Shown piece by piece: positions 22,390-22,922 of a stretch of DNA of 64,000 bases (positions are counted from its first letter, which is position 1; the number at the start of each line of letters is the position of its first letter). The notes under the pieces are model-generated. The model searched no databases and was not told where the DNA came from. It saw nothing but the letters and a program-made list of their open reading frames with translations. The stretch is from Mameliella sp. MMSF_3455 (GTDB taxonomy: Bacteria; Pseudomonadota; Alphaproteobacteria; Rhodobacterales; Rhodobacteraceae), in NCBI RefSeq assembly GCF_030733205.1, contig NZ_JASHJL010000008.1, positions 1 to 64,000 on the forward strand, written 5' to 3'. The translations under genes and the position numbers were made by a program.

Positions 22390-22419
22390 TTCCGGGCGCT
22401 TTTGCGTGAATTTAGATGG

Positions 22420-22447
22420 CGGCGGCAGAGAAATCTGTCGCCGTTTT
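22420..22447 (+). terminator. Intrinsic terminator of the udh-kdgD operon
   Basis: CGGCGGCAGA-GAAA-TCTGTCGCCG, a 10-bp stem with one G-T pair and a GAAA tetraloop, followed by TTTT. It lies 30 bases after the kdgD stop. The remaining 206 bases to the tRNA gene hold no recognisable feature. Confidence 0.9.
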
Positions 22448-22653
22448 CTATTCGTGGTGTTTCTGAATGGTGATGTGAGGTCGCATGATATTCGAGGTCT
22501 CCATTTCGGTATCCGGCTCCTCCGGAAATCGAAAGGATCCACGGGCCAGCCTGTTCGAAACATCAGGCCAGAGTCCGCTTCACCAGTTCACCGGGTTGGG
22601 GCGGTGATTGATGTCGGGTTCTTCGCCTTCCTGAATTTTTGTTTTGAAAATCA

Positions 22654-22730
22654 TGGAGATGCAGGCGGGAGTCGAACCCGCATGTTCCGGATTTGCAATC
22701 CGGCGCCATAACCATTTCAGCCACTGCATC
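22654..22730 (-). tRNA. tRNA-Cys (anticodon GCA)
   Basis: A perfect 7-bp acceptor GATGCAG/CTGCATC, anticodon stem CCGGA/TCCGG around TTGCAAA (GCA), T-stem GCGGG/CCCGC with TTCGACT loop. Discriminator T, a hallmark of cysteine tRNAs, and encoded CCA are present. The length is 77 nucleotides. It lies three bases downstream of the unusual tRNA-Ser, probably in the same transcript. Confidence 0.96.
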
Positions 22731-22733
22731 CAA

Positions 22734-22821
22734 TGGCGGTAGGCATTGGTCTCGAACCAAATTCTTGGGAAAGAACGCAACGATTAGCAGTCGTGCCCCG
22801 CACCTTGCGAGTTTACCTACC
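22734..22821 (-). tRNA. tRNA-Ser-like RNA (anticodon GCT) with apparent 8/4 acceptor branch
   Basis: This 88-nucleotide RNA is three bases upstream of tRNA-Cys. It has a class II variable arm (TTCTT-TCCC-AAGAA), T-loop TTCGAGA, GG in the D-loop, anticodon loop CTGCTAA, discriminator G and encoded CCA, all serine features. Folded as a normal 7/5 tRNA it has A in place of the near-universal T8 and a T-T mismatch at the base of the T-stem. Folded as 8/4 both vanish: acceptor GGTAGGTA pairs with TGCCTACC (8 bp, one T-G) and the T-stem is TTGG/CCAA (4 bp). The anticodon stem has four pairs plus a C-T mismatch. It could be a functional atypical tRNA, a tRNA-like regulator, or a decaying gene. Confidence 0.75.
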
Positions 22822-22922
22822 GAATGGAGGTCAGCAACAACTGCGATATGTCATTTGCGTGGTCATGCGGGATTGAATAAGCGGATATGACACATGGGTC
22901 AAGGCATTTGTTCCGATATGCC

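Follow-up and report, generated by a model that had tools for sequence, protein, structure and literature searches.

The chromosome of Mameliella sp. MMSF_3455 (contig NZ_JASHJL010000008.1) carries a class II tRNA-Ser(GCU) gene with an 8/4 acceptor branch, followed by a tRNA-Cys(GCA) gene. We consider it probable (roughly 0.8) that these two genes form a unit captured from a phage tRNA array and kept by the bacterium as accessory tRNAs that decode AGY and UGY codons. The earlier note on this DNA, a stretch of 64,000 nucleotides referred to as the window, had presented the serine gene as an oddity in its lineage; on the best reading it was instead captured from a widespread family of phage-type 8/4 serine tRNAs with a lengthened D-stem.

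Structure and covariation of the 8/4 serine tRNA

The span and the class that the earlier note assigned to the gene, a tRNA-Ser(GCT), proved right; the gene lies on the minus strand, reads from 22821 to 22734 and is 88 nt long including the CCA (Table 1). Folded in the 7/5 register it has an A at position 8 and a T-T mismatch at 49-65, as had been described from the sequence, whereas in the 8/4 register A8 pairs with T65 to give an 8-bp acceptor (GGTAGGTA/TGCCTACC, with one G-U) and a 4-bp T-stem. Of the two marks of an ordinary 7/5 tRNA-Ser, U8 and a 49-65 pair, the gene has neither. It does have the 8-bp acceptor and 4-bp T-stem, serine anticodon, long variable arm, G73 and phage relatives that mark 8/4 serine tRNAs, and the T-loop and encoded CCA listed earlier among its serine features are also present. 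An ARAGORN run, suggested earlier as a check, bore out the call in part: at default settings the gene was missed, and at relaxed thresholds it was reported as tRNA-Ser(gct) and drawn as 8/4. The Rfam models gave zero matches on this stretch even at an E-value of 10. RNA folding recovered the 8/4 acceptor and T-stem. The fold reaches -31.0 kcal/mol, whereas shuffled sequences average -23.3 (z = -2.46); 5 of 200 shuffles fold as well or better. Three features had been overlooked: the D-stem is 6 bp long; the anticodon stem is imperfect, with C opposite U at its top or, alternatively, with U42 bulged and more pairs formed; and the tRNA-Cys next to it is a second copy.

Table 1. Positions of the Ser-Cys pair, its parts and its upstream block in the window
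Feature	Positions	Strand	Basis or remark
tRNA-Ser(GCU), class II, 8/4 acceptor branch, G73, encoded CCA	22734..22821	-	ARAGORN relaxed, fold, covariation in relatives
Acceptor stem, 5' strand, 8 bp	22814..22821	-	partner 22738-22745; sequence; pair 8-65 kept in 14/14 related loci
Acceptor stem, 3' strand, 8 bp	22738..22745	-	discriminator G at 22737, CCA at 22734-22736; sequence
D-arm, 6-bp stem CTCGCA/TGCGGG, 3-nt loop AGG	22797..22811	-	fold; two-sided changes in relatives
Anticodon GCU, reads AGC/AGU	22786..22788	-	ARAGORN
Variable arm, 5-bp stem TTCTT/AAGAA	22762..22775	-	fold
T-arm, 4-bp stem TTGG/CCAA, loop TTCGAGA	22746..22760	-	fold
tRNA-Cys(GCA), genome's second copy, phage-like sequence	22654..22730	-	3 nt downstream of the window tRNA-Ser
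Upstream block, 40 bp, presumed promoter and 5' leader of the pair	22822..22861	-	2/40 sites variable

Relatives were collected with a pattern on the anticodon arm that left the acceptor unconditioned. It matched 16 genome stretches and one viral contig, and 8/4-type serine tRNAs were present in the viral contig and in 11 of the 16 stretches, from Mameliella (2), Ruegeria, Shimia, Sulfitobacter, Pseudohalocynthiibacter, Rhodobacter, two uncultured Rhodobacteraceae, an alphaproteobacterial MAG and the family genome G009; the other five (Pedobacter twice, Coleofasciculus, Paenibacillus and Clostridium) held no tRNA and were dropped. Pair 8-65 forms in all 14 loci bearing this pattern, which include three near-identical genus copies (13 distinct: 8 G-C, 5 A-T), and the alternative 7/5 pair 49-65 forms in none of them. 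A narrower model built from the three genus genes and run on 394 family genomes found matches in at least four, the window's own genome counted, which is a lower bound because the filters were strict and the model narrow; the other three matched genomes each have two or more tandem serine tRNAs. The strict 8/4 scanner accepts genes for all four serine anticodons in locus L073 and for three in each of L060 and G413, where the TGA gene was recovered by ARAGORN only. This scanner misses real members of the family, for example both serine tRNAs of Sulfitobacter phage phiCB2047-B.

A wider set of 130 model matches over 68 sources has the structure paired in 96.3% of cells and a covariation score of 0.791, as compared to 0.170 when shuffled and 0.081-0.115 when slid. 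As this alignment was fitted to the structure, the count of pair 8-65 over the 14 loci is the cleaner test. Over 123 distinct rows the six-pair D-stem helix is 94.1% paired, and each of its six pairs shows two-sided changes. Further counts were made on the best 107 of the 130 matches (41 bits or more; 101 distinct), the 23 weakest (below 41 bits, tyrosine and other non-8/4 genes among them) being excluded. Pair 8-65 forms in 99 of the 101 distinct rows and uses all four Watson-Crick types (GC 45, AT 31, TA 13, CG 10), so that the covariation proposed for the eighth acceptor pair is found, while pair 49-65 forms in 24. The discriminator is G in 99 of the 101, and every anticodon is a serine one (GCU 40, GGA 28, CGA 22, UGA 11), in a model itself built on serine tRNAs. 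These data confirm the window gene as an 8/4 class II tRNA-Ser(GCU) with a 6-bp D-stem.

Its unusual fold and conserved upstream block could also suit a regulatory or tRNA-like RNA that takes no part in translation, a role floated earlier together with decoding in a special context. No positive evidence was found for either role, and the first is highly improbable given that the CCA, G73, long variable arm, T-loop and serine anticodon are all kept and that the relatives found by the model hold serine anticodons only.

In the Sulfitobacter algicola array (L065), downstream of its Ser(GCT) gene at 681-770 on the minus strand, a single gene with mismatched acceptor strands appears to have arisen by fusion of the TGA and GGA serine tRNAs, a recombination loss inside the array. 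A neighbour gene common to the arrays, such as a toxin, integrase or synthetase, was sought by comparing ORFs all against all over 12 loci and was rejected; the comparison returned mainly tRNA translations and weak enzyme matches of 24-26%, together with one 44% match between L054 and L065 some 6-9 kb from the arrays and a small protein common to L060 and L064 at 39%.

The Ser-Cys pair in Mameliella genomes

The tRNA-Cys that follows the serine gene is an ordinary 7/5 tRNA. The genome has 41 matches to RF00005, and its ordinary serine tRNAs fall by ARAGORN into the GCT, TGA, GGA and CGA classes, so that a normal tRNA-Ser(GCT), whose presence had been raised as a question, does exist; there is also another ordinary tRNA-Cys(GCA). 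Both window tRNAs are therefore extra copies. The pair is flanked by a DHDPS-family gene and a 2OG-Fe(II) oxygenase gene, beyond which lies a Trp-halogenase-family gene, and none of six neighbours tested in Pfam belongs to a phage family. A plasmid origin was rejected, as the plasmid collection held no match to the 301-base query.

The pair occurs in three of six Mameliella genomes and is therefore dispensable in the other three. In one of these, G002, 187 bp separate the aligned flanks as compared to 712 bp in the window, and the pair is absent from the same site; this absence could be a loss instead of a site that was never entered. The site was inspected in G002 only, the alignments of G001 and G003 not extending beyond the DHDPS gene.

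Variable sites were counted per segment in an alignment of the three genus genomes that carry the pair. Over the three species, the serine gene varies at 1 of 88 sites, the cysteine gene at 4 of 77 and the segment directly upstream at 2 of 40, whereas the adjacent spacers vary at 62 of 187 sites further upstream (33%) and 174 of 258 downstream (67%), and the third codon positions of the oxygenase gene at 58 of 184. The sole difference in the serine gene turns a D-stem G-U into a G-C and keeps the pairing. The window tRNA-Ser is under purifying selection. Decay, another fate suggested earlier, is thus unsupported, and a pseudogene that loses its pairing at a neutral rate was rejected. The view that the gene is a phage-array relic, neutral or decaying, would fit the likeness to phage genes, the absence of the pair from half of the genus genomes and the fused gene with its broken acceptor in the related array of S. 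algicola; it is nonetheless very improbable in view of the contrast between the serine gene and its flanking spacers, the preservation of pairing by the single change and the conservation of the upstream 40 bp.

In our preferred reading, capture from a phage array followed by retention, the pair would be transcribed jointly from the conserved upstream region and then processed, although no sigma-70-like promoter or consensus match was found in the region upstream of the pair. Each of the six genus genomes has exactly one full-length SerRS, which would charge the window tRNA-Ser through its long variable arm and G73; a dedicated second SerRS was rejected, as the other matches in each genome are weak and below the cut-off. 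The two tRNAs would then serve beside the ordinary copies as accessory readers of AGC/AGU and UGC/UGU, presumably to the benefit of the cell.

Two further elements were noted around the pair. A 10-codon ORF beginning MSFA(W/C)SC lies at 22848-22880 on the plus strand, divergent from the tRNAs, with start and stop kept in the three species; it begins inside the conserved upstream block and could be a leader peptide or chance. A hairpin with a T-run follows the DHDPS-family gene at 22406-22449 on the plus strand and is likely a terminator; a weak Rfam match to CsrC at the same positions, far under the cut-off, is probably this hairpin.

Serine tRNAs of phages and the origin of the pair

8/4-type serine tRNA genes occur both in cultured phages and in viral contigs, in agreement with the earlier statement that phages carry them. 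They stand unannotated in Phaeobacter phage MD18, Sulfitobacter phage phiCB2047-B, Pseudomonas phage PAK_P1 and Mycobacterium prophage prophi86-1, and are labelled tRNA-Ser in Xanthomonas phage RiverRider and Vibrio phage VF16. One stretch of MD18 (L076 1188-1279, 1287-1373, 1899-1985 and 2997-3083) has one gene for each serine anticodon (CGA, TGA, GCT and GGA), the CGA gene being compatible with both registers, and the record gives no tRNA-Ser label within it. In phiCB2047-B, Ser(GCT), Ser(TGA) and Cys(GCA) genes are consecutive, and both serine genes are unannotated and fit 8/4 only. Phage genes were also found at other loci: the viral contig L059 codes for terminase, head and portal proteins and L060 for a tail fibre protein, and the array of G362 sits in a region with two phage lysozyme genes.

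A pattern on the T-arm matched 43 viral-contig stretches, 42 of them new, and the strict scanner, which sets no condition on the anticodon, found 54 tRNAs in these 42, 53 with serine anticodons. In phage loci mostly chosen for 8/4 serine tRNAs, the 59 distinct serine tRNAs divide into 36 that fit 8/4 only, 19 that fit both registers, 2 that fit 7/5 only, 1 that fits neither and 1 unclassified, as compared to 57 of 63 distinct leucine tRNAs that fit 7/5 only and none that fits 8/4 only. With the serine tRNAs of the bait pattern excluded, the 42 contigs still gave 11 serine tRNAs that fit 8/4 only, 10 both, 2 7/5 only and 1 neither; among all other isotypes 4 of 384 fit 8/4 only. A universal 8/4 form of phage tRNA-Ser was rejected in phages picked by the author or by tRNA-Cys similarity: the tRNA-Ser of T4 fits 7/5 only and those of T5 fit 7/5 only or both, both serine tRNAs of Vibrio phage D482 fit both registers, and of the two genes in Acinetobacter phage ZZ1 one is 7/5 only and the other 8/4 only.

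Outside the genus, the sequence nearest to the window tRNA-Ser among those compared is the G362 gene (83% identity), from the lysozyme-bearing region taken to be a prophage, as compared to 55% for the genome's own Ser(GCT). For the window tRNA-Cys it is the tRNA-Cys of Caulobacter phage CcrBL9 (82%), as compared to 70% for the genome's other tRNA-Cys, in a search that covered the phage collection. Among the sequences compared no donor phage was identified, and the highest identities outside the genus are about 83%. The phiCB2047-B array (HQ317387) resembles the window pair in having an 8/4 Ser(GCT) gene with a Cys(GCA) gene after it, its Ser(TGA) and Cys genes lying a few bases apart; it differs in that the phage carries many more tRNAs and that the window tRNA-Cys is 71% identical to the phage one. 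We infer capture of the Ser-Cys pair from a phage tRNA array.

The near confinement of the 8/4 form to serine in these phage loci, seen against leucine and with the same bias of choice towards 8/4 serine loci, could have another cause. The 8/4 serine tRNAs may have remodelled bodies that the tRNA-cutting or -modifying enzymes of the host do not recognise, so that phage translation continues and the bacterium keeps a protected spare. The coverage of four serine anticodons by MD18 and by some Rhodobacteraceae arrays would suit this proposal. Loop mutation has been proposed as the route by which tRNAs escape cutting, in the part of PMC10264068 that we draw on; serine tRNAs cut within the anticodon could not easily escape in this way, and a changed body would be an alternative. 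We nevertheless regard the proposal as unlikely: no toxin or nuclease gene common to the neighbourhoods was seen, the serine tRNAs of T4 and T5 lack an exclusive 8/4 fit, the cysteine partner has an ordinary 7/5 form, and common descent of a single phage serine tRNA lineage suffices without resistance.

Other RNAs were observed in the same material. Two of 12 distinct phage tyrosine tRNAs, at L123 10125-10207 and in L093, have the anticodon GTA and fit the 8/4 register only, and the 8/4 form may thus extend to some phage tyrosine tRNAs. Matches to tmRNA families were obtained in two viral contigs that hold 8/4 serine tRNAs as well, to alpha and permuted forms at L105 388-797 and to the permuted form at L098 4941-5170.

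Known systems and the annotation of 8/4 serine tRNAs

In certain bacteria and their phages, serine and histidine tRNAs reportedly have the 8/4 structure (the work of Mukai and colleagues, 2017, NAR 45:2776). The window gene has the same 8-bp acceptor, 4-bp T-stem, serine identity and occurrence in both bacteria and phages, and differs in that it sits in a chromosome together with an extra tRNA-Cys and that selection acts on it in three species. Mukai et al. 2017 aside, no other reports of 8/4 serine tRNAs in phages were found in the literature searched. In that literature, and with Mukai et al. 2017 standing outside the comparison, the selected chromosomal Ser-Cys pair, the arrays with four serine anticodons and the extent of missed annotation appear unreported.

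Two other classes with extended acceptor branches were compared through the parts of PMC7609411 and PMC7590224 that describe them. Allo-tRNAs are given there a 12-bp acceptor branch (8/4 or 9/3), a long variable arm and serine identity elements, with a long D-stem stated for the 9/3 forms. The window gene likewise has a 12-bp branch, a long variable arm and serine identity elements, but allo-tRNA anticodons are mostly non-serine, in contrast to GCU in the window and serine in 101 of 101 relatives. For tRNA-Sec, the corresponding part of PMC7609411 describes a 6-bp D-stem with a 4-nt loop, a long variable arm and G73, to which the 6-bp D-stem with its small loop, the long variable arm and G73 of the window gene correspond. 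Most tRNA-Sec have a 13-bp branch and a UCA anticodon, as compared to 12 bp and GCU here, and SelA was detected in none of the six genus genomes by a search whose control gave a signal in E. coli. A selenocysteine-type or allo-tRNA that carries a non-serine cargo would account for the D-stem with its tiny loop, and two related phage-type Ser(TGA) tRNAs do attain the Rfam tRNA-Sec cut-off. The branch length, the anticodon and the lack of SelA led us to reject tRNA-Sec identity, and the wider proposal of a non-serine cargo is extremely improbable.

The family as a whole is poorly recovered by annotation tools. ARAGORN recovers 22 of the 107 best matches at default settings and 52 at relaxed thresholds, 50 of them as serine. 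Over 12 tested loci, the Rfam tRNA model reaches its gathering score for none of 34 best matches and the tRNA-Sec model for one, plus one further Ser(TGA) gene in L073. The phage-type Ser(TGA) tRNAs at L076 1288-1368 and L073 6278-6360 lie just above the tRNA-Sec gathering score and may therefore be misread as selenocysteine tRNAs.

An 8/4 Ser(CGA) gene is carried by mycobacteriophages with genomes near 155 kb, which belong to the genus Bixzunavirus in the two records consulted and which we take to be cluster C1. It occurs in 102 phage records at an identity of at least 99%, several phages being present twice through GenBank and RefSeq, and a tRNA-Ser label covers it in 16 of the 48 matches listed at this identity. 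The identical gene is annotated in only one of phages LinStu (L144 7002-7087) and Khaleesi (L145 7002-7087). According to the part of PMC10264068 concerned with these phages, C1 mycobacteriophages rarely encode Ser(gga), Ser(tga) and Ser(cga), and avoidance was concluded; annotation there is described as based on ARAGORN and tRNAscan-SE. The CGA part of this rarity statement does not hold for the records examined here, our comparison with that part of the paper covering CGA only.

A broader proposal is that phages carry a parallel set of serine tRNAs, covering all four anticodons, with a tRNA-Sec-like body that evades the inactivating enzymes of the host, and that some bacteria have retaken such genes as protected spares. 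We hold this to be unlikely; if true, reports of serine-tRNA avoidance in phages would need re-reading, because annotation tools often miss these genes. The 8/4 serine class is largely invisible to two annotation tools, and this bears on the serine-avoidance inference published in PMC10264068, as far as the part discussed above goes. Taken as a captured member of this class, the odd tRNA of the window is accounted for as a gene of phage type on which selection acts in the chromosome of a bacterium.
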